The position numbers and the translations under genes were made by a program. From assembly GCA_023374045.1 (NCBI GenBank), contig CM041776.1:46196171-46260170 (forward strand): 64,000 nucleotides of DNA. Reading direction: 5' to 3'. The notes under the pieces are model-generated. The model did not search any database, was not told the origin of the DNA, and saw only the letters and a list, made by a program, of their open reading frames with translations. The stretch is from Limonium bicolor. Lineage: Eukaryota; Streptophyta; Magnoliopsida; Caryophyllales; Plumbaginaceae. Below are positions 10,440-31,300 of the stretch, piece by piece; the stretch's first letter is position 1, and every line of letters starts with the position of its first letter.

Positions 10440-10451
10440 TGGTATCAGAGC
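10440..10451 (+). other. Primer-binding site of element B, initiator methionine tRNA
   Basis: TGGTATCAGAGC lies five bases after the LTR end, confirming that the LTR at 6338-10434 is a 5' LTR and that the downstream gag and pol belong to it. Confidence 0.92.
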
Positions 10452-10661: not shown

Positions 10662-12130
10662 ATGTCAGGACGAGGTCGAGGCCGACCAAGAGGAGAGACA
10701 TCTGATGGACCGGGCGCGCAGACGATAGCAGAGATCGTCGCCGCCACGGTAGCGCAGATGCTACCACAAGTAATCACTGCTGTACAGCAAACACAGCAAA
10801 CCCAGCAACAGCAGCAGCAGCAGCAGCCCGACCCACCTCATCCCCGTGAGACAAATTGGGTAAAGGCAGTCGCCGACCTCCGACCGGCATGCTTTAGAGG
10901 CGAGAGCGACCCCGCCAAGCTCGAGGCCTACCTCTCCGAGATGGAGACGGCCTTCGACACACTTGAGACTCCCGCTGGAGTCCGAGTGAGGATAGCTGCG
11001 TACTATCTGAAGGACGCGGCTATGGACTGGTGGAAGCTCGTTAAGGCCGAGCACGTAGCTGATCCGGCATTCGGATGGGAAGCATTTACCTCTCTCCTCC
11101 GATCTAAATATTACCCCGAGCATGTCAAGACCAAGAAAAGGCTTGAGCTCGATGCACTTAAGATGACCGAGAAGATGACGGTTGATGAGTATTACCGCAC
11201 CTTCACCTCTCTTCTCCGACTTCTACCCGACCTTGGGTATACCGGCCAAGTCTTGGTCGACCGCTTCTACGGCGGATTGAGCCATCGACTCCGGTATGGC
11301 ATGGGCTTCACTCGGTTTACCTCCCTTCAGGTAAACAAGTTGAACCCTTAAAGGGCCATGAGTAATGTGAATTAGTATTCCTGCATGTAAATGTAACCTA
11401 ATGCCTAAGTAATTCAGGAGTGTTACCACGCTGCATCTCGAGTTGAGATCACCTGCCAGCTGAGAGATGAGGAACAAGCGCTGAAGCGCAAGGTGAGCGG
11501 CAAGGGTAACCCCTCCGATGAACAAAACCAATCCAAACCCTGGAAGAAAAGGAAGGGGAAGCACTCCCACCAGCAGAAAAATACATCCGGAGACGGCGGT
11601 GCCCATGCTGAGAAGGGCAAGGCAACTGAGCCTTTACAGATTGCCTACACCGCACCAGTGGCAGCTAAGCCACTGAGGTCTCAGCCCTACAGGGGTAAGA
11701 AACCTAAACCGAATTAGTACACTTGTGGAATTGTAAGTATATAGAGTATTGTAAGTATACCAAACCTTGCTAACTTGAAAGCTATAGGTTCTGGATTTGG
11801 CCAAGGAAAGAACCAATCTGATGGCCGCAGCTACATCTGCCGTAACTGCAACAAGGATCATCCCGGCACGGATTGCCAAGGAAGGGAGATCCGCTGCTTC
11901 AATTGTCAGAAACCGGGCCACCGTGCCAATGCATGCCCGGAGAATTCTAGGCCCAAGGGCAACTACCAGGGCTACAAGCAGGTGAGGGCAAGGAAGCGCA
12001 TCTGGTGATGCTCATGCCCAGCATACCTCACAGGGACAGGGATCCCGAGGCCCGCAGAAGGGCGCACCGCAGAGGCAGCCCGCCCTACACATCATTGACC
12101 GTGATGGGACCGGGACTAAGTCCGGCCCAG
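10662..12130 (+). CDS. gag: Gag polyprotein of element B (capsid plus zinc knuckles), intron-interrupted
   Basis: This codes for the structural Gag of a Ty3/gypsy retrotransposon, which packages element RNA. The ATG at 10662 opens a basic MSGRGRGRPRG start, then a Gln-rich run (about residues 44-55) and a Retrotrans_gag-type capsid region with AAYYLKDAAMDWW and YYRTFTSLLR motifs. The frame closes at 11351 unless an intron (11331-11417) is removed, after which the capsid continues as ECYHAASRVE. A second intron (11695-11787) precedes two zinc knuckles, CRNCNKDHPGTDC and CFNCQKPGHRANAC (a perfect CX2CX4HX4C). A one-base frame change is needed near 12000 to reach a Gln/Gly-rich tail that ends at a GT donor at 12131. 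Introns inside gag are unusual. Gag identity is certain; the splicing model is inferred. Confidence 0.88.
11331..11417 (+). other. Probable spliceosomal intron 1 in gag (87 bp)
   Basis: The donor is CAG^GTAAAC and the acceptor AATTCAG^GAG. It is AT-rich with in-frame stops, while both flanks read as one continuous Gag in phase 0. Confidence 0.75.
11695..11787 (+). other. Probable spliceosomal intron 2 in gag (93 bp)
   Basis: The donor is AGGG^GTAAGA. A branch-point-like TTGCTAACTTG lies about 18 bases before the acceptor AGCTATAG^GTT. It is phase 1, and joining restores a Gly codon leading directly into the zinc-knuckle region. Confidence 0.75.
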
Positions 12131-12319
12131 GTAACTACCGTAACCTTTAATCCTTGAAAAGCATGTCTAAAGTAGTGAAGTAACTGTATGAGTAAATGTA
12201 TGAATGCGTAAGTACTTGAAGTATGAAATTGAGCATGAGTAAGTAACATGGAAGTATGTATTGAGCATGAAAGGAATTAGTAAGCCTAGAACTCATTCTA
12301 GATGAATTTACCACCTTAG
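12131..12319 (+). other. Probable spliceosomal intron 3 between Gag tail and AlkB domain (189 bp)
   Basis: The donor is GCCCAG^GTAACT and the acceptor CACCTTAG^GGA. The stretch is AT-rich with TGAATG-type runs and many stops. Phase 1 joining gives a Gly codon and enters the frame that holds the AlkB domain, so Gag and AlkB would be one protein. Confidence 0.65.
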
Positions 12320-13044
12320 GGAAATTCCATATCTGTTACCCAATACCTTCAAACTCACCTCATGAAGAGACCGACATCGCCAACCACCACTTCAACAACG
12401 AACAGTGTCAGGTCATCCGCCCAGGTATGATCTTATTAAAAGGATACCTGACACCCGAAGCACAAATTTCAATCATCCGACGATGCAACGAGTTAGGAAC
12501 GGGTCCAGGAGGATTTTATACACCCGAATTCCCCGGTGGAGCTACAATGAAGCTAAAGCTTATGTGCTTGGGAAAGGATTGGAACCCTTATACCAAGACA
12601 TACCATACGACGCGAACAAGAGACGGAGCAACACCTCCAGCAATACCCCCAGAATTCCAAACGCTTGTCACACAAGCTGTAGAAATTCACAACGGTATGA
12701 AGATGAACCAATTCCTGCACTTGAAGCAGATGTGTATTGTCAACTTCTATGAGAAAGAAGGACGACTTGGCTTACACCAAGATAAGGACGAGACAGCGGA
12801 ATCTCTCGAACTAGGAGTGCCCGTAGTGTCTTGGTCCATTGGTGATGACGCCGTATTTCTGTATAGCGAGCGGAAGCGTGTGGACCTCGCAGAAATTGGT
12901 ATTGAGATCAGGAGATGTCCTCATCATGGGTGGAAAATCAAGGTTGCTGTATCACGGGATCCAGAAGATCAAGTTGAATACGGCACCACCGGCATAGTGA
13001 TCAATGCCACACACATGAAACCAGGACGCCTGAACCACCTTTAG
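12320..13044 (+). CDS. AlkB-like 2-oxoglutarate/Fe(II) dioxygenase domain inside element B
   Basis: AlkB-family enzymes use Fe(II) and 2-oxoglutarate to remove methyl groups from RNA or DNA. The main frame has an ATG at 12427 but is open from 12320, so it probably continues from Gag rather than starting there. The N-terminal part, MILLKGYLTPEAQ, resembles the AlkB lid region. The core IVNFYEKEGRLGLHQDKDE carries the iron-binding H-x-D (codons 12775 and 12781), followed by PVVSWSIGDDAVFLYS. The next part is read in the next frame and holds SGDVLIMGGKSRLLYHGI with the distal iron-binding His (12953). A later GRLN (13027) and, again in the other frame, TFR resemble the 2-oxoglutarate-binding Arg motif. 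All catalytic motifs are therefore present but spread over two frames by short indels. Position between zinc knuckles and protease is not standard for plant gypsy elements. The substrate is unknown; m6A or alkylated RNA is inference. Confidence 0.9.
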
Positions 13045-13260
13045 AAAGTATTAATCTTGTAGTATCATGTAATCCAGTAGTAACGTGTATTAGAGACACA
13101 GTATGTATGATGGTTGGTTATTCAATAAAAGCAGTGTTGGTTATTAAATTCCACTTGCGTTCCACCATCCTTACTTATAATCTTATGAATCAATAGGTTG
13201 TGGACTCGGTACCGAAGGTAGCCTGAGCATCCTCACCGAAGAACAAGCCGGCAGAGCGGC
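13045..13260 (+). other. Spacer between AlkB domain and protease (possible fourth intron)
   Basis: This is AT-rich with stops in all frames. A donor-like GAAA^GTATTA lies near 13046 and an acceptor-like AATCAATAG near 13196, followed by a frame with ILTEEQAG that leads towards the protease. An AATAAAAG word at 13123 could be a polyadenylation signal. The phase is not clean, so an intron and a separate AlkB end both remain possible. Confidence 0.4.
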
Positions 13261-13640
13261 ACCATTCTAACGGGAACATTCCCAGTAAACGGCATCGAAG
13301 CCAAAGTATTATTCGACTCCGGCGCCTCTCACACCTTTGTATCGCCATCATTCGCTACAAGGTTGGGGCTAGACGCAGATGAGCTACCAAACTTCTTGGT
13401 TACTCTCCCGTCGAAGGAGCGTAAAATGCACAAAGTATTACCACACCGCCACCATTCAAATCAAAGGTGAAGCGTTTCCCATTTCCTTCATCGAATTCAA
13501 CGGATTGGGATTCGACTTGATAATTGGAATGAACTGGTTGGAGCGGCACAAGGGACGGATCCTATGCGCCGAACACCGCTTGCTACTCAAGAGTCCATCT
13601 GGGGTCACTGTTTCATACCGCCAGAGACCAAGAGAGCCTT
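13261..13640 (+). pseudogene. Aspartic protease domain of element B (frameshifted)
   Basis: It cleaves the polyprotein during particle maturation. FPVNGIEAKVLFDSGASHTF contains the catalytic DSG (Asp codon 13315), the hallmark of gypsy proteases, followed by VSPSFATRLGL. A frame change near 13440 is needed to reach IQIKGEAFPISF and FDLIIGMNWLERHKG, the conserved end of the domain. The break could be a real mutation or a sequence error. Confidence 0.85.
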
Positions 13641-14590
13641 CAACCACAGTCATCTCCGCTATGGCAATGTATCGGGAGCTCAGAAAAGGGCACGAAGTAT
13701 ATTTATGTCACGTGCAAGACCTGGAGAGAGATCCAGAGTTCAGTGACGAGGTAGCAGTAGTCTCAGAATTCCCCGATGTATTTCCGAAAGAGCTACCTGG
13801 TATGCCACCACAGAGGGCGGTGGAATTTGAAATCGATCTTGTACCGGGTACTGGTCCCATCGCTAGGGCACCATACCGTATGGCACCGGCAGAAATGGCA
13901 GAACTTAAGGAACAGTTACATGATCTTCTCGACAAAGGGTTCATACGCCCGAGCGTATCACCCTGGGGAGCACCGGTCTATCGTGAAGAAGAAGGACGGT
14001 AGCCTCCGCCTCTGCATCGACTACCGCGAATTGAATGCGGTCACTGTAAAGAACAAGTACCCATTGCCACGCATCGACGACCTGTTCGATCAGTTGAAGG
14101 GAGCATCCGTCTTTTCTAAGATTGATCTCCGATCTGGTTACCACCAAATTGCTATCAAAGAGCAAGACATTCAGAAAACAGCATTCCGAACAAGATATGG
14201 CCACTACGAATTCACGGTGATGCCATTCGGTTTGTCTAATGCACCAGCCAAGTTCATGGACCTAATGAATCGGTTATTCAGTGATCAGCTGGACACTTCG
14301 GTAGTAGTATTCATTGACGACATTCTTGTGTATTCGAAGTCACCAGAAGAGCATGAAAACCACTTGAGAAAAGTACTTGAGACACTGCGCGAGAACCAGC
14401 TGTATGCGAAGTTCTCCAAATGCGAGTTTTGGCTAGATCAGGTATCATTCCTTGGTCATGTCATATCGAGCGCGGGTATATCAGTAGATCCATCAAAATC
14501 GAAGCAGTGCGATCATGGCCTAGACCTAAGACTGTTACCGACATCCGGAGCTTTCTTGGTTTAGCCGGTTATTACCGAGGTTTGTAAAGG
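13640..14590 (+). pseudogene. Reverse transcriptase of element B, Tekay-like chromovirus type (frameshifted)
   Basis: It makes cDNA from element RNA. Conserved blocks in order are [14 protein letters not shown] and [15 protein letters not shown] with [13 protein letters not shown] (one frame), then a frame change near 13978, [59 protein letters not shown] and the catalytic FIDDILVYS (Asp-Asp codons 14316-14321), then [12 protein letters not shown] second frame break lies near 14500, after which SGAFLV (LRSFLG-like) reaches a stop. The motif set is that of plant chromoviruses close to Tekay/Del; lineage is inferred by eye. Confidence 0.92.
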
Positions 14591-15195
14591 ACTTCCAAAG
14601 TCGCTAAGCCCATGACGTCACTCATGAAGAAAGATGCACCCTTTGTATGGACAAAGGAGTGCGAACTATCCTTCCAAACACTGAAAGACTCATTGACCTC
14701 AGCGCCAGTTCTCACACTTCCAGAGGGCACAGAGGGATTTGAGGTGTATTGTGATGCATCGGGTAAGGGAATGGGATGCGTGCTCATGCAGCATGGCAAG
14801 GTGGTAGCCTATGCTTCTCGCCAGCTGAAAAAGCATGAGGAGAATTACCCGACACATGATCTAGAGTTAGGAGCCATTGTCTTCGCCTTGAAGATATGGC
14901 GACACTATCTCTATGGGGTAAGCATCACCATCTCCGACCACAAAAGCTTACAGTACGTATTTACCCAGAAAGAACTAAACCTAAGACAAAGGAGGTGGAT
15001 GGAGTTCTATCAGATTATGACATCAACCTCCAGTACAAAGAAGGGAAGGCAAACGTTGTAGCCGACGCCCTGAGTCGTCGAGCACACTCGCTCCATTCGC
15101 TACTCGCTTCTTCTAGCTTGGTTGACGAGGTGCGAGACGCTCAGTTGAGCGACCCTTACTTCACAGAGATCAGACAGAAAATCACAGATGGTACC
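14590..15195 (+). pseudogene. RNase H domain and start of the integrase linker of element B, cut by element C
   Basis: It degrades the RNA strand during reverse transcription. [16 protein letters not shown] holds the first acidic residue, then [32 protein letters not shown] and [10 protein letters not shown] (TDH-like block). A frame change near 15045 leads to [10 protein letters not shown], the usual end of gypsy RNase H, and then a linker to ITDG, where element C begins at 15196. No integrase or chromodomain is found here or after element C at 33577, so the pol gene is incomplete in this window. Confidence 0.9.
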
Positions 15196-15927
15196 TGTGG
15201 AGGGTGATTTTTCGGTATGAGGGGGGGTCCAATCTAAATATGGTCTGGCTGGAAAGCCTAGATCCTAGAAAAGGCCATTCTGTGGAGGGTGAAAACCCGT
15301 TATTCTGGCATCCCTCAAATACCTACTAAATCGTCCGTCTTTCCCAGAAAGCATAAAGGGGAGTGCAAGTGTGCACTACACCCGCTCTCGATGGGCTCCA
15401 CACGGACTTATGCCCTAAAGGCGGGAGTTGACTAGAGTCGCCACCTAGTTTGACCTATGATAACTAGGAAGGAAGATCGGGTTCTAGGAACCGTTAATTG
15501 ACTCTGATGATTTGTTGCCTATGGAAAGGACTTATCTGATCATACTAGAGATTCTATGTGGGTTCGCACTGGGTTACACCCCTCGGAAGTGGCAATGACC
15601 ACAACCTTGGATTGGTGCCCGAGGAAACCTCGGTCTCCAATTGTCGGGATTTCCTTCTTTCAAAACCTTGTTAGAGAGATTCATTTAAAAGCCAACGATA
15701 GGATTAGGAGGGGGAAGAGAGAAAGAGAGTGGATGAAGCGAGGTTTTCTGTCAAGCTCACGCCAAGGGGAGGAATTGCTGAATTCGGATGAGTATAGAAT
15801 GAAGATCTGGGAAGTCTGAGGTTGAGTGAATAGACAAGACCTGAAGTCTGATGGTTGAAATTTATGGGAGCTGAAGAAGGTTTGAGAGATATGAGAGCCA
15901 CCTTAGAAGGGGAAAATGGTTTTTTGT

Positions 15928-16010
15928 TTGGAATGGGGTCGCACCCTAGGTGGGCTGCCTACGTACTCAACTTCCGGTTGAGATCAGACCTTACGTAGTT
16001 CACGATTTTC
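15928..16010 (+). repeat. GGTCGCACCC...TACGTAG hairpin module, first copy
   Basis: The module reads GGGTCGCACCCT, GGGCTGCCTACGTACTCAAC, then GTTGAGATCAGACC and TTACGTAG. CTACGTA and CTCAAC pair with GTTGAG and TACGTAG. Further copies are at 16286-16365 and in the other LTR (29036-29105, 29385-29455), and one lies in the interior (23396-23465). From memory, similar CTACGTA modules are common in plant Tat/Ogre LTRs. Confidence 0.7.
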
Positions 16011-19000
16011 GGGTTTTGGAAATTTTGATGTTTTGAAGGTTTTTAGAAAAGCTTGATGTGTGGGATGTTGTAGTCTGTGAGACGCTCGGGTCTATGAGAC
16101 GTTTGAAATCTTGAGATGTCGAAATCTGTGAGACACTCGGATCTGTGGGACACTCGGGTCTATGAGATGCTCGGTCTGTGAGATATTCGAATCATTGGAA
16201 TAACAAAGTCTGGGAGACACTCAGGTCTGTGAGACAATACGGGGTTGCTTGGAGGTGAGATGGCTGAGTGAAAAATGACATTTTGATTGATGTGGGGTCG
16301 CACCCTGTGTGGGTTGCCTACGTACTCAACTCCCTGTTGAGATCAGACCTTACGTAGTTCAGAGTTTTGGGATTTTAGGAGTTTTGTGAGGTTTTGAAGG
16401 GTTTGAAGTTTCGGATGTGAGAGGTTAGTCTGTGAGACGCTCAGGTCTGTGAGACGTTTGAAACCTTGAGATGTCGAAGCCTGTGAGACGCTCGGATCTG
16501 TGAGACGCTCGGGTCTGTAAGATGCTCGGTCTGTGAGACATTCGAATCATTGGAATGACGAAGTCTGTGAGACGCTCGGGTCTATGAGACAATTAGAGTG
16601 TGGGAGAAATTGGAATAGAATTGAAATTGAATTGAAATCGAAGTTGAATCGGGGTTGAATGAATATTGATTTGAACTAGAATTGAAATGAATTGGATTTG
16701 AATGAGTTTGGAATTGAATTGAATTTGGAATTGAAATTGATTGAATTTGGAGCTGAAATAAATTTTTGAATGAATTGGGAATTGAATTGAATTTTGAATG
16801 AACTGAAATTGAATGAAGTTTCAAATCGAATTGGAATTTATAAGTTAGGAATTTGGCCTGAATTGAATTGATTTAGGCTGATTTGAATTGATTTGATTTT
16901 GGAATTGAGCTTTGGTTGAATTTGCAATTGAATTTGGGTTGATTTGGACCTTTTAACTTGGGCCGGTTGAAGGTGGGCTAGATTCAGATTCGTGGGCCGA
17001 GTTTTGAGCTAGTTGGTTTGGATTGGACCTTTGAAAAGTGGGCCAGTTTAGGCCATGGAGGATGGGACAGGTCAGATATGGGTCAAGTTTTTGGGCCCCT
17101 AAAAAAAATGAGTCTTGTTATTGGGCCTAAAAAATGGGATTTGTTATTGGGCCTTAAAAAATAGGCCAGAAGAGACTTGTTAAATTGGCCTAGATCTAGG
17201 CCTTGGAAAGTGGGCCGGATTTGGGCCTTGGGTTTTGAATCGGGCTTTGGCTTGATTAGGGATTTGCTTGAGTTTGAATTTTGGGCTTGATTTGGATTTT
17301 TGGACTTGGAAGAACGGGCCAGGTTAGTCTAGAAGTTTGGCTAATTTTAAGCATCAATTTTTGGTTGATTTGGGATTCAAAGATAAATCTAAATTTGAAA
17401 TGATTTTTTTTTTTGATTGATTTTTGAAGGAGAATGGATTTTCAACAGATTTTTGAATTGGGTCATTGACTGTGAATTTTATTTTGACAATTATGGATGA
17501 TTTGGAAAGTTTTATTTTACTAGGAAAGATGTCACCCACAAACAGGTACTACGACCCTCGGGTACTACGACCTTAATGTGGGCAACATCTGTGAATGGTC
17601 CTAGGGCTTTTCTAAAGAGACCCACAGAAAGTTTAAAGCCTAACTGGACTTATGAGTCCAAAACAAATGGGTAACCTATGGGCTTTTCTAAGGTCAACAT
17701 GTACATAAATCAAACCCCAAAAAAAAAAGACTTGGTCGTGAATAAATTGATTTGGTTGGGTCTGGTCCAGCTAACTATCGTCACTAATCATAAGATACTG
17801 CCAAACTAGGCATGAGAAAAAATAATAAAAAAGGTCAAAATAAAGCGGAAGCCAATTTCGTTATCAGATGTTCATGGTGTATAACCAATGCGCTAAGCTT
17901 CGGTCCACTTTTACAACAATAATCAGATTATGCAAACACATCCTTAAAGCATGGAAAGTAAACTAGTAATTCTGGATTAATCCTAAACAAAGCACTTTAA
18001 CTCGGGTAAAACGACTCAACAGTATTCTTTTTTGTAAGCAGTATGGCAATTGGGCTGGAAATAAAACAATCAAAATCAACCAGAAAGCTAGCCTGATGTC
18101 AAAGAACCGACTCAATTGGCAGCCTCCAATCTTCTCCAAGCAGCCCATGTCAAATAAGCGCAGGTACCTCAGTAAAAACATGAAACCAAAAAAGGGGTAA
18201 GGGACAAACTTAGTCAAACAGATAGCGTAAAGGAACATAATATGGCTTCAGAGGGGCAAATGGTGCTGAAACAACATTTTTTTTACATCTACATGTTTGA
18301 ACCTGGAGTAGTAGGCAGCAACCGAAGTCCACAAACACGGTTAATCAGTCAAGTATAATGTGAAGGTTGAATTAGGGATGCCGAATGTGACCAAAGCCCC
18401 AGTGTAGAAATATCTCAATTCCATCTCAGAGCAAAAATTCAACCGGGTCATTACTGTCCCAAATTTGGATCCGATAACGACAAGTATGATAAGAGATATG
18501 GTTCAAGCCACGTATTAAATCGAACCGCAAACAGTCAGCATACATCAAAATCGAAATCCTGTTTTAGTCATCTAAATCAATTTTCACAAACAGGGATATC
18601 GACTGCGACACCAAAATTCAACCGGAATCATAAATTAAACCAAACGAGCCTAAAATGACAATAAACCAAAGGCAAGCATAGCAAACGCTAGAGAAGTGGT
18701 CAGATCAATCCCAGTCAATACTTGAAAATAAAAGCGTCTAGAACACACAAGATTGATTTGCAATTAAATAAATCAGCCAAAAAAAACTCGAACATCACGA
18801 ATTAACCAGTGACACAAAGAGGAGGACCAGGATTAAAAACAAAGTGAATATACTGCAAAATGATACCGTTCAGCTACTAGTGAAGTGGACTGCTGATGAT
18901 TGAATAAGCAAAAGAGAAATCAGGCTTCACTTGGGATCCACCGCAACAAAGAGAAGGCGAGCATCCTGCTCCTGCCTCAAAGATTAAGGTCCACCTGCCT

Positions 19001-19311
19001 CGCTTCATTTTTCTTTTTGCTTAGGATTTTTCGGTTGAAGTAAAGAAAGGGGCAGAGAATGAAGGTGAGGTCCGATGTAGTGGATGAAGTACAGCGGTCG
19101 TTCCCAGGGAGAGTGGCGAGGGTTCGAGGAAGAAGCCAGGGCGGATTCGAGGGTGAATGAACGGTGTAACGGGGAGGTGTTTGAGGAACAACCGAGGAAG
19201 AGAAGAATTAGAAATGGAGCTTGCTGACTGAATGAAGAGATGCGGGTAGAGTCATCCGATAGAAAGGGAGGCGGCTGATAGAGGAAACGAGAGTAGATTC
19301 CCGAAAATGTT

Positions 19312-19515
19312 TTAGGATTTTTTCTTTAGGTCTATGAAATGGATGATCAATCGTGATGCGGTCGATTCCTTCGTGTAAGGGTTTTTTTCGAATCCTTTTT
19401 GAGAAGGCAATATGACTGCGATGAGGAAAGAGCTTCGACTCAGGTGTGGAGCGGTGAGGAAGAAGACAGTGTTGATGGCTACCGTGAAGAGAATAAGACG
19501 GGATCCCAATAGCAT
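19312..19515 (-). CDS. Short LTR reading frame of element C, 67 codons, unknown
   Basis: The frame begins MLLGSRLILFTVAINTVFF, with a hydrophobic, signal-like start, and ends KKKS. The same peptide is encoded at 32396-32599 in the other LTR without any change, although flanking DNA differs by indels. It lies 30-40 bases downstream of a minus-strand TTATAAAAC box (about 19548-19556) and would be an early frame of the LTR transcript. No family is recognised. Identity between recent LTR copies does not by itself show selection, so this may be non-coding. Confidence 0.25.
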   Translation of the reverse strand: MLLGSRLILFTVAINTVFFLTAPHLSRSSFLIAVILPSQKGFEKNPYTKESTASRLIIHFIDLKKKS

Positions 19516-19721
19516 GTCCGCTCCATCAGGGTTTTTTGGGATTGTTGTTGTTTTATAAGAGAAATGTAAGGAAAAAAAAGGAGGTAGGTGGCGGCTGGCT
19601 TAATAAATTGTCTAGGGTTTATTCTGGTTTTCAGTTTTGGGCTGGTGAGATGGAAGAGATATTGGGTCTGGGCTTCGTTTGTTTTTAATCCGACCAGAAC
19701 GTAAAAAAAAATTAATTATCT

Positions 19722-19788
19722 CACTGTCTACAGTCTAGAGACCACTCGGATCCTCATCATCATGCTAACCAGTTGAGCCAATTGTGAG
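19722..19788 (-). repeat. tRNA-like stretch in LTR C
   Basis: On the minus strand TTGGCTCAACTGGTTAGCATG matches a box A, and GGATCCGAGTGGTC is a weak box B about 20 bases later. The same stretch occurs at 32804-32872. No complete cloverleaf is seen. Confidence 0.4.
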
Positions 19789-20492
19789 AAAAATTACTAG
19801 AGTTTTAATTCGAACTGAAAGATTTTACAAAAACGTTAGGTTTTAAATATAAAATATAGTAAGTTGAATAGTTTTATCTAACGAAATGAATTGTTTTCTT
19901 TCTAAGAGTCATGAAGTTATTAAATGTGGGTAAAAAAGAACGTTATAAAGAATTAAATAAATGAAATAAAGAATAATACGTACATGAAATAATGAAATGT
20001 ACTAATATGATAGCATACAAGCGAATGTCGTAAAAAGGGAAATTGAATTAGATATGTGCAAGTGATGGTAAACATGATGAAATGAACGAATAATAAATGA
20101 TTAAGATGTAATCTAATCCAATAAACAACAAACAAAGTATACTAATACGAAAAGTAATAGTGAACAAGTGTATAAAATGATATAATAACAATGAAAAGTA
20201 GATGCTGGAAAACAATGAAAGTAGCAATAGCTAATAAATGAATAAATAAGCAATAAGGAGATCAGTGAATAAAACAAAAGGGACGGGTTTGAAACCGTAT
20301 TGTCGGTGGAAATTCATTTTCGAAGAACTGTATTTTTCTGAAATGCTTTGAAATTTATTCAAAAATTTTGTCATAAAATGATGGTTTCATTTTGGTATGA
20401 ACATGAACAAGTTTTTAAAGAAAGGCGACAACCCTCTTATTTTATTTATCTTTTGGATTTTCTTTATAGGGTGAGAATTTTTGGTGTCTACA

Positions 20493-20505
20493 GATGGCTC
20501 CCCTT
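20493..20505 (-). other. Polypurine tract of element C
   Basis: On the minus strand AAGGGGAGCCATC lies directly before the LTR start TGTAGACACC. It fits the plus-strand priming site of a minus-strand element. Confidence 0.75.
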
Positions 20506-20984
20506 GATTCAATTCTGCAAGGGAAGACTTGCAGAATTGAATCAAGGTTGAAAGGGCGCCAAAAATTCTCACTGCGGTTTATGAGATGCAACTACGATTG
20601 CGAAAGGATAGGAGGTGCATGACCAGCATATGACGTAAAGATTGAATGCAAAAATATTTACAATTAGTCCAGAATACAAAGGTTTTGATGGGTGAGGGGA
20701 CAAGCCCTGAACACAATGGTTGGATTTGTTAAACAAATTTTGAACATGAAAATTGTTGGGTTTGGTGCGAGGCTTATGACGAGCATAGAATGCTAACAAT
20801 AGATTGGTTCGGGGTGCACGAGGACTTAGGAGAGCCTCAACTGGACCTCTTGACATCCAGTCCTAGGACTTATGACGAGCCTAGAATGCAATTGAAAATA
20901 CGAGGACTTAGGAGAGCCTCAACTAGACCTCTTGACATCTAGCTATAGGACTTATGACGAGCCTATATACTTTGGATGTGTACC
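20506..20984 (-). other. Element C interior between polypurine tract and minisatellite
   Basis: No gene is recognised. An inverted repeat of CTTGATTCAATTCTGCAAG type flanks the polypurine tract (20500-20550). A block with GACTTATGACGAGCCTA and AGGAGAGCCTCAACT words is repeated (20810-20960). Confidence 0.5.
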
Positions 20985-22676
20985 GTGCTAGTAGCGTAAT
21001 AGCTGTCTAGCAGGCGGATGTGAAACGATCTCGCACTAGTAGCGTAATAGCTGCCTAGCGGAGGAACAATTTTGGGACCGTACTAGTAGCGTAATAGCTG
21101 CCTAGTGGGTTATGAAGTGAACGATCTCGCACTAGTAGCGTAATAGCTGCCTAGTGGAGGAAAAACGGCAACCGCACTAGTAGCGTAATAGCTGCCTAGT
21201 GGGTTATGAAATGGACGATCTCGCACTAGTAGCGTACTAGCTGCCTAGTGGAGGAAAAACGGCGGGACCGCACTAGTAGCGTAATAGCTGCCTAGTGGGT
21301 TATGAAATGGACGATCTCGCACTAGTAGCGTAATAGCTGCCTAGTGGAGGAAAAATGGCGGGACCGCACTAGTAGCGTAATAGCTGCCTAGTGGGTTATG
21401 AAGTGAACGATCTCGCACTAGTAGCGTAATAGCTGCCTAGTGGAGGAAAAACGGCGGGACCGCACTAGTAGCGTAATAGCTGCCTAGTGGGTTATGAAAT
21501 GGACGATCTCGCACTAGTAGCGTAATAGCTGCCTAGTGGAGGAAAAATGGCGGGACCGCACTAGTAGCGTAATAGCTGCCTAGTGGGTTATGAAGTGAAC
21601 GATCTCGCACTAGTAGCGTAATAGCTGCCTAGTGGAGGAAAAACGGCGGGACCGCCGCACTAGTAGCGTAATAGCTGCCTAGTGGAGGAAAAATGGCGGA
21701 CCGCACTAGTAGCGTAATAGCTGCCTAGCGGATAAATGAAAGGCGACCGTACTAGTAGCGCAATAGCTGACTAGCAGGTGCAAAACGAAAGGCGACCGTA
21801 CTAGTAGCGCAAGCTGTCTAGCAGGTGTAAAACGAAAGGCGACCGTACTAGTAGCGCAATAGCTGCCTAGCAGGTGTAAAACGAAAAAATTCGACCGCAC
21901 TAGTAGCGCAATAGCTGTCTAGCGGGTGTAAAATGAAATGTGACCGCACTAGTAGCGCAATAGCTGCCTAGCGGTGTAAAAAGAAAGGTGACCGTACTAG
22001 TAGCGCAATAGCTGTCTAGCAGGTGTAAAACGAAAGGCGACCGTACTAGTAGCGCAATAGCTGTCTAGCAGGTGTAAAACGAAAAATTCGACCGCACTAG
22101 TAGCGCAATAGCTGTCTAGCGGGTGTAAAATGAAATGTGACCGCACTAGTAGCGCAATAGCTGCCTAGCGGGTGTAAAACGAAAGTCGACCGCACTAGTA
22201 GCGCAATAGCTGTCTAGCGGGTGTAAAACGAAAAGTCGACCGCACTAGTAGCGCAATAGCTGTCTAGCGGGTGTAAAACGAAAAGTCGACCGCACTAGTA
22301 GCGCAATAGCTGTCTAGCGGGTGTAAAAAGAAAAGTCGACCGCACTAGTAGCGCAATAGCTGTCTAGCGGGTGTAAAACGAAAAGTCGACCGCACTAGTA
22401 GCGCAATAGCTGTCTAGCGGGTGTAAAACGAAAAGTCGACCGCACTAGTAGCGCAATAGCTGTCTAGCGGGTGTAAAACGAAAAGTCGACCGCACTAGTA
22501 GCGCAATAGCTGTCTAGCGGGTGTAAAATGAAATGTCGACCGCACTAGTAGCGCAATAGCTGTCTAGTGGGTGTAAAACGAAAAGTCGACCGCACTAGTA
22601 GCGCAATAGCTGTCTAGCGGGTGTAAAACGAAAAGTCGACCGCACTAGTAGCGCAATAGCTGTCTAGCGGGTGTAA
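20985..22676 (+). repeat. Minisatellite array, about 35 units of 45-51 bp with CACTAG...CTAGTG palindromic core
   Basis: The core is CGCACTAGTAGCGTAATAGC followed by TGCCTAGTGG. CACTAG pairs with CTAGTG across a conserved TAGCG(T/C)AATAGCTG loop. Two subtypes are segregated: GCGTAATAGCTGCC with alternating spacers (about 20985-21750) and GCGCAATAGCTGTC with a GTGTAAAACGAAA spacer (about 21750-22676). The last ten units are nearly uniform at 49-50 bp. Frames through the array are repeat translations. Confidence 0.95.
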
Positions 22677-24230
22677 AGATGCGTCAGATAGTGAGCAAAT
22701 TTTGTGGGTATATGCAGATGATATGTGATGTGAGGTGATTAACCAATGTATTAATTGAATTAAACTCCCTTTTTGTGGATGTAGGTTTTTGCGTGAGCAG
22801 ATGTCTCTATAGTAACATCAAACTCTTGGGATGGCTCCGGTATGGCTCCGGCATGGCTTTAAGGATCTGAGATGGCTCCAGCATGCGTTAATAGCTCCAG
22901 TATGCATTGATGGCTCTGGTAGGCACTGATCGCTCCGGTGTGGCCGGCGGTCTGTCTGGGGTGGTTGGTGGGTTTTTGATATGACAGTGACCTTGAGAAT
23001 GGTCGATGGTCTTGATGTGGTTGTTGAAGTTCGAGGTGACTGATCGGTCGGCTCCATATGATGGATTTGCTGTGGGTGAACTTGTTGTCATTGCCAAACT
23101 TGGTTGGATGTCTTCGGTGTAGTTCTCATCATGGCTCCGGGATGGCTCCGTCATGATTCGTGACCCCATTATGAGTAACGGCTCTGGGATGGTTTGTGGG
23201 TTTCAATTTGAGTGAAGATTATCGGGATGGTTGGTGGGTTTCCATTTGGATTGGATTTTGAGTCGAATGTGGGTTGATGTGATTAATGGATTTTGATGTG
23301 TTGATGTTTTTTGTGGTGATGAATGGCTTCGGTGTGGCTCCGGAATAGCTTCAATGTGACTCTGTGGGGAAGAAGGGGGAGTTTTTCCTTTGAGGTGGTC
23401 GCACCCTGGGGGGGCTGCCTACGTACTCAATTCCATATTGAGATCAGACCATACGTAGTTCGATCCTCTGTGGGCGAGGCTTTGATGATGAATCGGCTCC
23501 AGTATGGTTCAGAGGTGGTTCCCGTATGGCTCTCTGGCTCTTGGGATGGCTTCTGGATAGCTCTAGGAATGGTTCCAATGTCTGAGAATGGCTCCCGTAT
23601 TTTCTCGAACTGTTGGGGAGGCTCCCGCATGGCTCCAGGAATGCTCTGGAATGGTTTCTACATGGCTTTCGAATGGCTCTTGTACGATCTCGGTATGGCC
23701 TTGGGATGGCTCCGGGTTTGACTTCTTTTGATCGGGAATTGAGCTTCAACAACTGCAACTGAAGTCGACTTTCAGCGAGACTAGGCAGAGTACTTACAAA
23801 TCGGATGCTGATGATGAATTGGTTATGATGCATGCAGATATTAAATGTCGGATACGATGCAAAATGCATATGCAATTTTTGGAGAGAAGGTATGGCTTAT
23901 CTTTATTAATATGAGGTTTACGAATATAAGACATCTTTGGTTCGATCTTGAGTGATTGTTCAACTGGAATGCGTGAATCACTTTCCTCTCACGGAGGGAT
24001 ATGGGTCAATCTCTTGTGAGTGTGGTTGTGTGTGCTAATGGTGTGATGATGCTCTCGATGCTCGGAGTAGTATTTTCCTTAGAATTTCTTTCGAGGTTAT
24101 GAACTTTCTGTTCCTCACAAATTCCTCACCTGCAATGGGGTAGGCCGATTATGATTTGGTGGTTCAGTTGAAGAGTCACTCGCACTCTAAAGACCTTGTG
24201 AGATTAGGTCACACTCATTCGCTAACGGTC
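22677..24230 (-). other. Element C interior: degenerate ATGGCTCCGG-type repeat zone
   Basis: From about 22825 to 23720, words of the type ATGGCTCC(G/A)G recur at irregular 20-30 bp spacing, and the hairpin module lies at 23396-23465. The reading frames on both strands here come from this simple repetition. No protein family is recognised. Confidence 0.6.
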
Positions 24231-27190
24231 CCTTTGGTATGACGGGACATGTTGATAACAAGTACGAAACTTATGATTCATGTTTCAGATCCGATACTTT
24301 CGGTCAACGCTCATCAACTAACGAGTCAGAGGTCTTTTATTGGGTTATAACGGGGTTAATGGGTATGATGTATGTCACATGGGACTGGAGGATTTATTTG
24401 GGAATTGTGGAGCTTTTGTGCAATAGAGGACGTGTTTCGCCTTTGCCATGGGTGGAATGATTGGACGGGTTTTGATAACCTTTTATTGGTTTCTATGGGA
24501 CATCATTGGTCCTTCTGATTTTGATTTCTCCTTCTTGCCTCTTCTGGTGTTCGATTTGAACTTTCTTCTCATTTTGTTTTTTGAAACTGCATTTGGCTCA
24601 TCAACTTTCTCAAGCGTTTTCTGCTTTGTATTTTGGCTTTCAGCTTTGGAGTGGCATTGACTCATCGATCTTCTTGAACATTTTCGGTGTTCTTTTTTGG
24701 TGTTTGGCTTTGGAGTTGCATTGACTCACTGATTTCTTCAACATTTCATTTGTTGTTTTGTGAAGATGGTGGGGGGGGCCATGGCTCCGGCTCCTTTGAG
24801 ATCCTCTATTGCAAGGGCATAGTATATGTACGTGGGTTGGCATATTGTGGAGTTCCAAGAAAAGAGTTTTCCTGAAAGGCTCAGCGGGGCTCACTAAGGG
24901 ATTATGTAGGGCAGTTGAAGCTTTTGGTTTTGGAGGTTTTGATCCTAAGTGCCTCGTCATTCTCATTATCAATGATTGTTTTCTTACTTCTCATCTTTGC
25001 ATGAATCACAGTTCGTATCATGTTTATCGACATTGCTCTCACTTTCAATCATGCCTCTCCATGTGCTAAGGAATGCACATGTCGCTCGTGGTTTTACCTC
25101 AATTGGAACTCTTACCTTCCCTCATCACTCATGATCGTCCAAAACACTCATCAAATTCAAGAGAAAATACCGCTCTTTGCACACTACTCACTTTGGTTTG
25201 TGGTGCTGATTTTGATTGGACCCTAGTTCATTGACGGGTCGAGAGTTAGTGATTCAAACACTATGTTCAAACAATCAATCAAGCTTTTCACCGTAGACAT
25301 CGTTTCGATATGGGAGTATGCAATGCATTATCTACAATGCAATATGATGTGGTAATATGGAATTACTATGTATAGGATGCATGAAATGATGAGAATGAAA
25401 ATTACTTTTTGGATTTTGATTCGATTTTTTTTGCTTGTTTTTTTTTAATGGATGCAATGCATGAGTGGTAAGGTTATGACTAGTCTCGCTTGAGCCGAAC
25501 TCAGCTTGCGGTTCATGAAGCTCATCCCATCATTGTAAGCCCTGAAGAAGGTCAAGTTGTTGGATGTGATGTGAGAGAAGTTGTTTCAAAATGGTATTTG
25601 GTCGATGATTGGCTCCTGGGATTTTGGAATTTTAGGGAGTGAAAACTCCCGCATGGTGATCCCATGATATGACAGTGACTACATTTTTTGGGATTTTTGA
25701 AGGTATGTTTTTTATTTTGGGATTTTTTGGATGTATGACTTTTTTGGATTTTTGGATGTGTATGCTTTTTGTTGTTGTTTGGTCTCTATGTACATGGTAG
25801 CTGAATGGGAAAAGGTTCGAATCTCTGGTATTTCTTGCTATCGCTTCGAGGGTCACGCTTTCACTCATGGGTAGACGCGGTTAATCACCTGCAAACACAA
25901 TCATTATAACAGAAAAAAGAATATGACAAATGTGGATGTTAGCATGCTTTGAAAAATGGGATGAATGCTTGTGTGTGATGTGTTGGGAATGCAACATGTG
26001 ATTATGCAATTTGAGGTGAGCGTGATTCATGCATGATTAATGAATGTGAACTGATCGGAAATGGAAAAGCAATCATATGTGCTAAAAGAAATCAAGTTTT
26101 AGAAAAAGTTTTGAAAACGTGTTTCGAAGTGGTGGATTTTCGCAGTAGGAATTTTGACGCTCGGTCATTCGCAAATAAAATAGGGAGTGGGGGACCCTAT
26201 ACACATTGATCTAAATAAATTCAAAGGGAATGTACAACCTATACACAAAGTCTATTCAGAAATTGACAAGAGAGAAAAGAATGCTAGGGGAAAACCTATA
26301 CATCAATTCTAAAAGTCATTAAATGGGGGAGTTTGAGCTTAAAACTTCTCCCGAATTCTTCTACTTCGTCTTCGGGCTTCTGACTGACTACTCATTCGTC
26401 TTCGGGCTCCTGATTGATCGTTTGCTCGTCTTTGGGCTCTTGCAGCGAAGCGGTACTGTGATCATACAAAACAGGTTGGTGTTCTTCTGACTCTCAAACA
26501 GTTTGAACTCGAACAGTCGTTGCTAGTTAATCAACTCGGGTTGGTACATCTTATTTTTGACTCAAACTGCGTTGTCGATCTTCATGTGCTCCATCTGCTC
26601 CGACGGGAAATAAGGGGCGTTTTTTGAGAAAGGAAAGGTGAATGATCGAGCACAAGTTCTTTGTGAAAATCCACCACTTATGTGAAAACACGAATGACTA
26701 GTACGCTCCACGATAATGACCGCTGCTCTTGAAGGTGGGTTGAACTTCAAAAATAGCGGGTCGCAACATGGGGACTAAATCATTTATTTTGAAATACGTT
26801 TATGAAAATCAACTTTGAAAATTGTTTTGAAAAACAAGTTTGAGATAATATCCGTGAAAAATGTTGTTTAAAATTTATTTGTAAAAAGCATGTTTTTGAA
26901 ATCTGTTTTTGAAATGAAATTTATGAGAAGTATTGTTTGAAAATCATTTATAAACAGTAGATTTTTGAAATTTGTTCTTTGTAAACCGCTTGACAAAGTT
27001 TATTTTTTGGAAGACTTTGATTGAAACTTTGAAAACTGTTTTGGAAAACAATTTTGAAACAATTTGAAATCATTGAGAGAACGACTTTGAAGATATTTCA
27101 TTAGAGTGTTGACATGATTCATTTTCTTTTTGCTCATTTTTGAAACGTGATCACACATAGATGTAAGTGTAAAATAAAAATCGTGGCTGA
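24231..27190 (-). other. Element C interior: non-coding, with local repeats
   Basis: A roughly 85-bp unit built on TTTGGCTTT(C/G)AG and GCATTGACTCA is repeated at about 24600-24750. A TTTGAAAA-rich simple zone occupies 26770-27080. No credible long reading frame or retroelement domain is found. Confidence 0.5.
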
Positions 27191-27513
27191 TTTTATGTGG
27201 AGCTGAGTGCGAATGATTGGGATAATCACCTTCCAGGTCAATCAATGCTTCCATACCACCGGGGGAACCGTCGTCCCTTCACTGTTCATCTCTCGGGATT
27301 TATCTCTATTATGCCTTGTGGGGCACGTCATCGAGAAAGACCGGAGTGCTTAAGTTCGAAAGGTCAGGATACCCGAAGTGATACAGTCACATGAGCCACG
27401 GCCGGTGATTATCACAACATGCTCACTTTCGGAAAACTTGGGGAAGTACTGCATGGGGTCGGGTCCCGTCGTCTGCACGGTCAGGTGTGTCTAAAGTCCA
27501 AATTATTCACTGA

Positions 27514-27933
27514 CTACGTTGTGCCATGTATGGGTATCCGGTAAATACGGGATCCTCTATGGACGTGTAGCGTGACATCAGGCTTTAGAGACACCCGTGG
27601 TGCAGAGGACACTTGGAGAACTGAGCCCATGCAATCTTCAGGGTAATGCAAAGGGTGGTCAGACAGGCGGCATACAAGGGGGTGACTACCCATAAACCCA
27701 TCTAGACACGGGACCGGGCAGCTGGACACTGAAGGCTCAGAGTTCACTATATGCTGGCTTTGACTCGAAAAGGTAAGTGTTGAAGGATCATGAGTTTTCA
27801 AGGCGTAGATACTACGATCATACCGCCTCGTGTGCATAGTCCTTACTACGAAGGGCATCTGCTCATGGGGAATCAATTGTGGACCAATATTTATCCCGAC
27901 CGCAAATATCAAGGGTGACACAGAGGAATGCAT
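27514..27933 (-). CDS. Hypothetical 139-codon frame in the 5' leader of element C
   Basis: On the element's sense strand this is the first sizeable frame after the primer site, about 0.4 kb in. The product starts MHSSVSPLIFAVGIN, is rich in Ser, His and Pro, and shows no motif I recognise. It is not Gag-like. Ogre elements are known to carry an extra ORF before gag, but I see no specific likeness to it. It could equally be chance. Confidence 0.25.
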   Translation of the reverse strand: MHSSVSPLIFAVGINIGPQLIPHEQMPFVVRTMHTRRYDRSIYALKTHDPSTLTFSSQSQHIVNSEPSVSSCPVPCLDGFMGSHPLVCRLSDHPLHYPEDCMGSVLQVSSAPRVSLKPDVTLHVHRGSRIYRIPIHGTT

Positions 27934-28312
27934 GTCCTAAGCTACCCTATGCACCCACCTCAGGACTATTCCTAACAGTTCAATATCACAAAAAAGCGGT
28001 AAATAAATGCGCAGGCAAAGAGAGGGAAGAAGTTAGACCCCTAATGGGCCCACCTACCTGAAGTTCCTGCAAGTTAGTCTAGCATAATCACGCAATTATG
28101 TAGCAAGCAAAGCGCAGATGGCAAGCAAAGTCAAGTATAAGCTACACACTCTCATCCTAACTATCCTCACCAATCACACTCTAGTGTGGAGTAGAGTAAT
28201 CCTAATGGCTTTCGAATGAATCTCTTGAAGGTTTTGAAAGAAGTGGGGAAATCCCGACAATTTTGAATGGAGTTCAGTCTTCCTTGAGTTTGAGAAAAAC
28301 TTACTCAAGTTT

Positions 28313-28330
28313 TCCCCAGCAGAGTCGCCA
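28313..28330 (-). other. Primer-binding site of element C, tRNA-Arg type
   Basis: On the minus strand TGGCGACTCTGCTGGGGA begins three bases after the LTR end. As I recall it, this is the tRNA-Arg primer site reported for Ogre-type elements. It fixes the orientation of element C. Confidence 0.85.
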
Positions 28331-28333
28331 TTC

Positions 28334-31300
28334 TGTGGAGGGTGATTTTTCGGTATGAGGGGGGTCTATCTAAATATGGACTAAAAGCCTAGATCCTAGA
28401 AATGCCATTCTGTGGAGGGTGAAAACCCGTTATTCTGGCATCCCTCAAATACCTACTAAATCGTCCGTCTTTCCCAGAAAGCATAAAGGGGAGTGCAAGT
28501 GTGCACTACACCCGCTCTCGATGGGCTCCACGCGGACTTATGCCTCTAAGGCGGAATTGACTAGAGTCGCCACCTAGTTTGACCTATGATAACTAGGAAG
28601 GAAGAGGGTTCTAAGAACCGTTAATTGACTCTGAGATTTGTTGCCTATGGATAGGACTTATCTGATCATACAGAGATTCTATGTGGGTTCGCACTGGGTT
28701 ACACCCCTTAGTGGCAACGACCACGACTTCGGATTGGTGCCCGAGGAAACCTCGGTCTCCAATTGTCGGGATTGCCTTCTTTCAAAACCTTTTAGAGAGA
28801 TTCATTTAAAGCCAAGGATAGGATTAGGAGGAGAGAGAGAAAAGAGTGGATGAGCGAGCTTTTCTGCCAAGCTAGCCAAGAGGAATTGTGAATTCGGATG
28901 AGTAGAATGAAGATTGGGAAGTCTGAGGTTGAGTGAATAGACAAGACTGAAGTCTGATGGTTTGAATTTTGGGAGCGAAGAAGGTTTGAGAGAGATATGA
29001 GAGCCACCTTAGAGGGGAAAAGGTTTTTTGTTTGGAATGGGGTCGCACCCTAGTGGGCTGCCTACGTACTCAATCCCTGTTGAGATCAGACCTTACGTAG
29101 TTCACGATTTTGGTTTTGGAATTTTGATGTTTGAAGGTTTTGAAAGCTTGATGTGTGGGATGTAGTCGTGAGACGCTCGGGTCTATGAGACGTTTGAAAT
29201 CTTGAGATGTCGAAATCTGTGAGACACTCGGATCTGTGGACACTCGGGTCTATGAGATGCTCTGGTCTGTGAGATATTCGAATCATTGGAATAACAAAGT
29301 CTGTGAGACACTCGGGTCTGTGAGACAATACGGGGTTGCTTGGAGGTGAGATGGCTGAGTGAAAAATGGCATTTTGATTGATGTGGGGTCGCACCCTGTG
29401 GGTTGCCTACGTACTCAACTCCCTGTTGAGATCAGACCTTACGTAGGTAGTTCAGAGTTTTGGGATTTTAGGAGTTTTGTGAGGTTTTGAAGGTTTGAAG
29501 TTCGGATGTGAGAGGTTAGTCTGTGAGACGCTCAGGTCTGTGAGACGTTTGAAACCTTGAGATGTCGAAGCCTGTGAGACGCTCGGATCTGTGAGACGCT
29601 CGGGTCTGTAAGATGCTCGGTCTGTGAGACATTCGAATCATTGGAATGACAAAGTCTGTGAGACGCTCGGGTCTATGAGACAATTAGAGTGTGGGAGAAA
29701 TTGGAATAGAATTGAAATTGAATTGAAATCGAAGTTGAATCGGGGTTGAATGAATATTGATTTGAACTAGAATTGAAATGAATTTGGATTGAATGAGTTT
29801 GGAATTGAATTGAATTTGGAATTGAAATTGATTGAATTTGGAGTGAAATAAATTTTTGAATGAATTGGGAATTGAATTGAATTTGAATGAATGAAATTGA
29901 ATGAAGTTTCAAATCGAATTGGAATTATAAGTTAGGTTGAATTTGGCCTGAATTGAATTGATTAGGCTGATTTGAATTGATTTGATTTGGAATTGAGCTT
30001 GGTTGAATTTGCAATTGAATTGGGTTGATTTGGACCTTTTAACTTGGGCCGGTTTGAAGGTGGGCTAGATTCAGATTCGTGGGCCGAGTTTTGAGCTAGT
30101 TGGGTTTGGATTGGACCTTTGAAAAGTGGGCCAGTTTAGGCCAGGAGGATGGGACAGGTAGATATGGGTCAAGTTTTTGGGCCTCAAAAAAAAAATGAGT
30201 CTTGTTATTGGGCCTAAAAAATGGGATTGTTATTGGGCCTTAAAAAAATAGCCAGAAGAGACTTGTTAAATTGGCCTAGATCTAGGCCTTGGAAAGTGGG
30301 CCGGATTGGGCCTTGGGTTTTGAATCGGGCTTGGCTTGATTAGGGATTTGCTTGAGTTTGAATTTTGGGCTTGATTTGGATTTTTGGGACTTGGAAGAAC
30401 GGGCCAGGTTAGCTAGAAGTTTGGCTAATTTTAAGCATCAATTTTTGGTTGATTTGGGATTCAAAGATAAATCTAAATTTGAAATGATTTTTTTTTTTTT
30501 GATTGATTTTTGAAGTAGAATGGATTTTCAACAGATTTTTGAATTGGGTCATTGACTGGAATTTTATTTGACAATTATGGATGATTTGGAAAGTTTTATT
30601 TTACTAGGAAAGATGTCACCCAAAACAGGTACTACGACCCTCGGGTACTACGACCTTAATGGGGCAAACATCTGTGAATGGTCCTAGGGCTTTCTAAAGA
30701 GACCCACAGAAAGTTGAAAGCCTAACTGGACTTATGAGTCCAAAACAAATGGGTAACCTATGGGCTTTTCTAAGGTCAACATGTACATAATCAAACCCCA
30801 AAAAAAAAAAGACTTGGTCGTGAATAAATTGATTTGGTTGGGTCTGGTCCAGCTAACTATCGTCACTAATCATAAGATACTGCCAACTAGGCATGAGAAA
30901 ATAATAAAAAAGGTCAAAATAAAGCGGAAGCCAATTTCGTTATCAGATGTTCATGGTGTATAACCAATGCGCTAAGCTTCGGTCCACTTTTACAACAATA
31001 ATCAGATTATGCAAAACATGCTTAAAGCATGGAAAGTAAAACTAGTAATATTGGATTAATCCTAAACAAAGCACTTTAACTCGGGTAAAACGACTCAACA
31101 GTATTCTTTTTGTAAGCAGTATGCAATTGGGCTGGAAATAAACAATCAAAATCAACCAGAAAGCTAGCCTGATTCAAAGAAACCGACTCAATTGGCAGCC
31201 TCCAATCTTCTCAAGCAGCCCATGTCAAATAAGCGCAGGTACCTCAGAAAAACATGAAACCAAAAAAGGGGGGTAAGGGACAAACTTAGTCAAAACAGAT

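Follow-up and report, generated by a model that had tools for sequence, protein, structure and literature searches.

An ALKBH1-type AlkB domain, probably an alternative terminal exon, between gag and pol of a Ty3/gypsy retrotransposon family in Limonium bicolor

The window that we analyzed, a stretch of 64,000 nucleotides from the genome of Limonium bicolor, contains a decayed retrotransposon with an AlkB-type dioxygenase domain between its Gag and protease regions. A preliminary description had recognized this domain in a Ty3/gypsy element, and a profile search of the region matched: window positions 12301-13044 hit PF13532 (2OG-FeII_Oxy_2) with E = 4.9e-22 and 79.5 bits (the cut-off is 31.2), and the rice AlkB structure 5xeg with E = 2.5e-47. 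The Gag capsid exon and a CCHC exon (11745-12008) precede the domain, and the protease (from 13222), reverse transcriptase (RT), and RNase H follow it in that order. The AlkB motifs that had been quoted are all present, but they are spread over two frames: the frame at 12301 holds NFYEKEGRLGLHQDKDE, PVVSWSIGDD, and GRLN, and the frame at 12299 holds SGDVLIMGGKSRLLYHGI. Because SGDVLIMGGKSRLLYHGI lies in another frame than the other motifs, this copy lacks an intact AlkB frame. In the in-frame piece, the iron-binding H and D are visible and the remaining cofactor residues are out of frame. The protease is likewise split across two frames. The family to which this decayed copy belongs is large. 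As for the limits given earlier for the domain (12320..13044), the start is the exon start that we predict from splice phase (see below), but the end is slightly short of the stop codon of the family's AlkB, which by eye corresponds to about 13052-13054 in the window.

The features of the element are listed in Table 1. The motif of its primer binding site presumably fits the initiator tRNA-Met.

Table 1. Features of the AlkB-bearing element in the window. A slash marks a splice site; introns and exon boundaries are predictions.
Feature	Position	Strand	Evidence or remarks
Primer binding site TGGTATCAGAGC	10440..10451	+	just 3' of the 5' LTR (LTR end ~10434)
gag exon 1, capsid	10662..11330	+	PF03732 E 1.4e-16; PF19259 E 2e-11
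gag intron 1 (putative)	11331..11417	+	CAG/GTA and CAG/G sites align with 20 copies; missing in retrocopy L039
gag exon 2	11418..11694	+	flanked by aligned splice sites
gag intron 2 (putative)	11695..11787	+	aligned splice sites
gag exon 3, nucleocapsid, CCHC zinc knuckle, broken frame	11788..12130	+	PF00098 E 1.4e-06; end is the CCAG/GTA donor
Alternative intron, Gag to AlkB (putative), phase 1	12131..12319	+	donor and acceptor phase; subfamily A spliced junction at 13 places
AlkB terminal exon, ALKBH1-type (putative), broken frame	12320..13054	+	PF13532, 5xeg; start from splice phase
Alternative intron, Gag to Pol, skipping AlkB (predicted from phase only)	12131..13196	+	same donor; TAG/G acceptor in 21/21, phase 1
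Pol exon start, protease and linker to RT, broken frame	13197..13978	+	PF08284 E 4.2e-13 and 7.7e-08 (two overlapping frames); tblastn with family Pol
Reverse transcriptase	13983..14498	+	PF00078 E 5.4e-39; 90% identity to subfamily A copy, 172 aa
RNase H	14588..15061	+	PF17919 E 2e-32; PF17917 E 3e-31

The match of the window to the family's Pol stops at 15195, where a nested element starts, and the integrase pieces of the family have no match past 15195 in the window. The nested element (15195-33576) has ends of about 5.3 kb each (15195-20492 and 28333-33576) that are 95.8% alike. Because it has few internal open reading frames of at least 130 amino acids, it is perhaps non-autonomous. Self-comparison also identified a tandem array inside it (20818-22677, with a unit of about 96-100 bp). 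Farther along on the same strand, 36004-40643 contains stretches with 74-84% similarity to the LTR and 3' end of copies in subfamily A (defined below). We take this region to be an old relative in its own right, not the 3' LTR of the AlkB element, whose LTR it resembles only in a tandem repeat. On the minus strand, 42497-44223 contains inverted pieces that are 75-80% like the 5' LTR region of the AlkB element, perhaps a solo LTR. By eye, open reading frames at 54119-54658 and 59753-60166 resemble a LINE reverse transcriptase and a copia-type fragment.

When we searched the assembly that contains the window (2.92 Gb) with PF13532, 38,325 first-look candidates emerged, which are unconfirmed as copies. 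We scored 150 of these; all 150 cover the whole profile, with 165-170 bits, and 149 have no internal stop. The loci described next were all picked by AlkB score, which favors intact AlkB. Gag, nucleocapsid, AlkB, and protease occur in this order in each of 20 copies (10-kb loci), and RT, RNase H, and integrase were found in 19 of them (L019 lacks these three inside its own 10 kb). Among eight shorter loci, all have AlkB, and Gag, protease, and RT were each found in seven. The Gag or Pol frames are broken in many copies. By their AlkB DNA, the 20 copies form two subfamilies, A (n = 16, 93-100% identity to the reference) and B (n = 4, 73%), and the window copy is a third branch beside them. The primer motif TGGTATCAGAGC is present in 19 of the 20 copies and was not found in L010. 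One element, L015, spans roughly 13 kb and has LTRs of about 3.35 kb, which are 98.7% identical over 1578 bp and 95.0% identical over the remainder; the LTRs of L014 are 94-96% alike, and the upstream piece 5' of L017 that was compared for an LTR gave no match. Pfam searches of L011 and L014 returned the Ty3/gypsy domain order. A chromodomain (PF00385) matched at the expected site after the integrase (E = 2.4e-4 and 2.9e-5; 21.4 and 24.4 bits). Because these matches are below the Pfam cut-off of 25.1, we describe the lineage as probably chromovirus-like Ty3/gypsy. Elsewhere in the assembly (G000, C1:497439466-497470353), four AlkB matches with equal scores are about 10.1 kb apart, like tandem elements with common LTRs.

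We compared the exon boundaries across these copies. Two short gag introns have GT and AG sites that match across the window copy and subfamilies A and B. In the reference copy, GC content is 0.32-0.35 in the introns, 0.57-0.61 in the Gag exons, and 0.46 in the AlkB exon. A third donor, CCAG/GTA, ends the nucleocapsid exon in all 21 sequences (window plus 20 copies) and splits a Gag codon after its first base. If this donor is unspliced, the Gag frame closes at most about six codons farther on in the copies read. An acceptor that is 8 bases before the conserved motif [NHK]IC[YF]P is in phase with the donor in both tested A copies, all four B copies, and the window. The AG/GA bases of this acceptor are visible in 16 of 16 A copies, and homology to the subfamily A AlkB query starts exactly at the predicted exon start in the four B copies and in L027. 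Another acceptor, TAG/G, precedes the protease in 21 of 21 sequences, and its phase also fits the donor in every one of them. In the three B copies that were shown in full, the first methionine comes no earlier than about 45 residues into the AlkB domain, and the Pol exon has no methionine before the protease site in any of the 18 legible copies (of 20). On this basis, both exons seem to require an upstream start. As judged from splice phase, then, AlkB would be an alternative terminal exon with its own stop; it had been correctly placed between Gag and protease, but it does not appear to be an in-line domain of the polyprotein. Splicing of Gag to Pol is predicted from the phase and from the missing start of Pol. 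We also considered an acceptor at -26 (CTAATTAG/AT) and dropped it: the TAG site is present in subfamily A only, and the site at -8 has the same phase in A, B, and the window. An extra 52-base intron in exon 3 of the window copy was dropped as well, as exon 3 is continuous and of near-equal length in the copies.

To place the AlkB domain among known proteins, we used the window's AlkB as a query and found 260 proteins. We listed the best 120 of these. Ranks 1-3 (P0001-P0003) and rank 16 (P0016) are proteins from ENA contigs, and the named hits that we read are plant AlkB or ALKBH1-type proteins. A search with the window's Gag gave exactly one hit at E <= 0.001 (P0121, 65% identity). P0121, which is Gag-like, and P0001, which is AlkB, each lie on a contig of 26,621 bases, and because both contigs have this length, we infer that the two proteins are on one contig. 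A single scan of viral contigs, in which near records may be omitted, gave no relative of P0001.

All 20 copies retain the iron ligands (H-x-D...H), both 2-oxoglutarate arginines (RxxxxxR), and, within NFY, the N and the Y. The AlkB domains of L011 and L014 score 169.4 and 168.6 bits, respectively, against PF13532. We modeled the structure of the L011 domain (mean pLDDT of 90.2) and obtained 1545 structural matches. The best are two entries for OsALKBH1 (5xeg and 5xoi; TM scores of 0.81-0.83 by query and 0.92-0.93 by target, 49-50% identity) and the next is E. coli AlkB; the highest-ranked ALKBH5 is number 49. Similarly, among the 25 PDB sequences with E values up to 10, OsALKBH1, E. coli AlkB, and ALKBH1 are present and ALKBH5, 2, and 3 are absent. 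The AlkB of the element is of the plant ALKBH1 type, not of the ALKBH5/9/10 type. The preliminary description had proposed removal of m6A or of alkyl damage from the element's RNA; because the type is ALKBH1 rather than ALKBH9/10/5, taking m6A off RNA is just one of the options. We also built a tree of 52 proteins, in which 12 element-type AlkB sequences (7 of the 20 copies, the window, and the four ENA proteins) form one group (100/100) on a long branch (0.74), versus 40 plant ALKBH1-type proteins taken from the 120 listed hits; this tree is unrooted, its plant rows are ALKBH1-type, and the host's own ALKBH1 is absent from it.

We computed dN/dS ratios for AlkB (NG86), omitting pairs with undefined or zero dS. 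The ratio is 0.18 within A (119 of 120 pairs kept) and 0.16 within B (6 of 6), and the choice of copies by AlkB score lowers these within-subfamily values. Between A and B, it is 0.115 (63 of 64 pairs), with dS saturated at about 2. Between A and the decayed window copy, it is 0.24 (16 of 16 pairs); for B and the window, one of four pairs was kept. Constraint is weaker upstream of the first methionine of subfamily A (0.59 within A and 0.30 from A to B), and this stretch lies partly upstream of the predicted start of the AlkB exon. Overall, the ratios indicate that AlkB is under purifying selection. They bear on the idea of AlkB as a passenger that, once captured, multiplied with the element and brought it no benefit. 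Selecting copies by AlkB score does over-represent intact frames, the gag and pol frames of many copies are broken, and the function of AlkB is a prediction. Nevertheless, we consider a passenger unlikely given the low A-B ratio (with its saturated synonymous sites), the cofactor residues that are kept in every copy read at 10 kb, and a splice phase that is kept across all three branches.

From the splice phase, we predicted the Gag-AlkB junction, and we searched for it with a 32-base pattern (subfamily A letters only, at most 3 mismatches). The pattern occurs at 13 places in the genome, three of them exact, while the backward control occurs at none. These 13 places are few relative to the size of the family. 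We read five of them. In L035 and L036, the Gag-to-AlkB intron alone is missing; in L037 and L038, both this intron and intron 2 (precisely) are missing; and in L039, all three introns are missing, with an acceptor for intron 2 that is 3 nt upstream, as in NAGNAG splicing. Another copy, L015, which was found independently, precisely lacks intron 2 alone. In L035, L036, L038, and L039, the AlkB DNA continues unspliced into the protease region. L037 ends about 50 bases inside the AlkB exon, and the 138 bases that are apparently left in its Gag-to-AlkB intron are an alignment artefact. In L038, the nucleocapsid and AlkB exons run for 417 codons in a single open frame. Such copies are what one would expect if a message that was partly spliced but otherwise of genome length had been reverse transcribed. 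Since the junction is present and introns are missing at the predicted sites, the element appears to make spliced Gag-AlkB RNA, with AlkB spliced onto Gag.

Another way to express AlkB would be translation by itself from an internal start, so that there is no fusion to Gag and the splice sites are incidental. A methionine does occur near the start of the AlkB domain in subfamily A and in P0001. However, the three B copies mentioned above have no such methionine, the junction was predicted beforehand and then found at 13 places, and the set of missing introns differs between copies, so we give an internal start little credence. It could also be that the intron-less junctions are one old deletion that was copied many times and not a record of splicing. 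Two of the exact junctions are 10 kb apart on C2 and several of the 13 have an identical variant letter near the junction. For these two reasons, the junction events number fewer than 13, and some of the junctions may share one ancestral event. But a single deletion is very improbable as an explanation for all of them, because the sets of lost introns vary (L035/L036, L037/L038, L039, and L015) and the losses end on predicted sites (once 3 nt off). Finally, a one-off insertion of a fragment of a host ALKBH gene into a gypsy element, which the broken frame of the window copy might suggest, can safely be rejected: the AlkB of the family is full length in 150 of 150 scored candidates, in many copies, AlkB is flanked by Gag on its upstream side and by Pol on its downstream side (by Gag and protease in 20 of 20), and the 12 element-type sequences form one group in the tree.

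Having weighed these alternatives, we think it likely that a gypsy lineage captured a plant ALKBH1-type AlkB and has maintained it, between gag and pol, as an alternative terminal exon, and that the Gag-AlkB product acts on the nucleic acid of the element. The family-wide architecture, the constraint, the intact cofactor residues, and the retrocopies of spliced Gag-AlkB RNA are directly supported by the data above. In this scheme, the 5' splice site of the nucleocapsid exon would have three outcomes. If it is left unused, Gag would be made, with a stop within a few codons; if it is joined to the AlkB exon, Gag-AlkB would be made, ending after AlkB; and if it is joined to the protease exon, Gag-Pol would be made. 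By analogy with the biology of other retroelements, an AlkB that is fused to capsid and nucleocapsid would be expected to ride with Gag on the element's RNA or into particles. There, it would most likely strip methyl or alkyl groups from RNA or from new cDNA, and these would be marks that flag the element for control or that block its copying. Gag-Pol splicing, production of the proteins, entry into particles, catalysis, and the substrate are all predictions of this scheme.

A benefit of AlkB to the element is plausible because, in Arabidopsis, ALKBH9B releases the RNA of ONSEN from m6A-dependent sequestration (PMC12786077). A more specific idea involves m1A. Human ALKBH1 is an m1A demethylase that is linked to levels of initiator tRNA-Met (PMC9362929), and in HIV-1, m1A58 of the primer sets the stop point of plus-strand synthesis (PMC13191261). 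By analogy, Gag-AlkB that is packaged in particles might clear m1A or other methyl marks on the Watson-Crick face from the packaged template or the primer tRNA, which we regard as a speculative and improbable reading. The version with the primer tRNA also has evidence against it, as the same HIV-1 report describes lower infectivity upon loss of m1A58 (PMC13191261). If the m1A reading is true, then a captured enzyme tunes reverse transcription, and one splice choice sets the ratio of AlkB to Pol.

Whether an AlkB domain had been reported from a retrotransposon was left open in the preliminary description. One has: a gypsy AlkB was already published from Phalaenopsis orchids (Alvarado-Marchena et al. 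2022, PMC9289625). According to that report, Gypsy_Pa_2799 is a Tat/Ogre-like element of about 25.5 kb with a tRNA-Arg primer site and with Gag-Pol in one open reading frame; its AlkB is of the ALKBH5 type, is encoded by a separate ORF2, and is an m6A demethylase in vitro; and a screen of 121 angiosperm genomes found the AlkB domain only in two species of Phalaenopsis (PMC9289625). Both families are plant Ty3/gypsy elements with AlkB (PF13532), intact cofactor residues, and high copy number. Unlike the orchid elements, the family that we describe is probably chromovirus-like, is about 13 kb long, and has the TGGTATCAGAGC primer site in 19 of 20 copies; its gag and pol are parted by stops and introns, in contrast to a single Gag-Pol frame; and its AlkB is ALKBH1-type, with predicted catalysis, and apparently is an alternative exon spliced to Gag instead of a separate ORF2 (PMC9289625). 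Enzymes of the ALKBH1 and ALKBH5 types may act on different marks.

Other systems share parts of this arrangement. OsALKBH1 (5xeg and 5xoi) has both the closest fold and the closest solved sequence to the element's AlkB, but it is a host gene, whereas the element's AlkB forms its own long-branch group and would be expressed behind Gag. Rice ALKBH1 has been tied to 6mA in R-loops and to chromatin (PMC10469495). Splicing in Ogre and BARE1 and the spliced env of Bagy2 likewise set a ratio of products or reach a downstream open reading frame, but in the parts of those sources at hand, no accessory enzyme exon is joined to Gag with Pol competing (PMC3735527, PMC12786077). Some plant RNA viruses, mentioned in PMC9289625, are also RNA elements with an AlkB that is thought to protect RNA, but their replication strategy differs from that of this retrotransposon. 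A search of open-licence literature (excluding preprints) for a second capture of AlkB by a plant retrotransposon found the orchid case only, and this case is the sole AlkB element named in the available part of a review from December 2025. What is new here is AlkB as a putative alternative terminal exon, with a donor phase that is common to the AlkB and protease acceptors.

Compared with the orchid case, this family would be a second capture, with another class of AlkB, in another branch of gypsy elements, at high copy number, and with splice-based expression behind Gag. With a second capture, demethylation of nucleic acids would become a strategy that retrotransposons have adopted repeatedly. 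The element may alter the chemical marks that its own genetic material carries, and whether methyl marks restrain plant retrotransposons becomes testable. Also, the retrocopies illustrate how DNA alone can reveal the way a mobile element is spliced.

We also examined the relatives of the Pol region. None of the best 120 (of 7,967) lists PF13532. By hand count, 35 of these 120 have Gag and RT in one protein, and when these 35 were searched with the AlkB exon, none matched. An LHQD motif in P0167 is a chance match, as this protein has no hit to the AlkB exon. Three plant-type retrotransposon Pol proteins (P0160, P0228, and P0229) are filed under Corynebacterium, Listeria, and Labilibacter and are probably plant contamination of bacterial assemblies.
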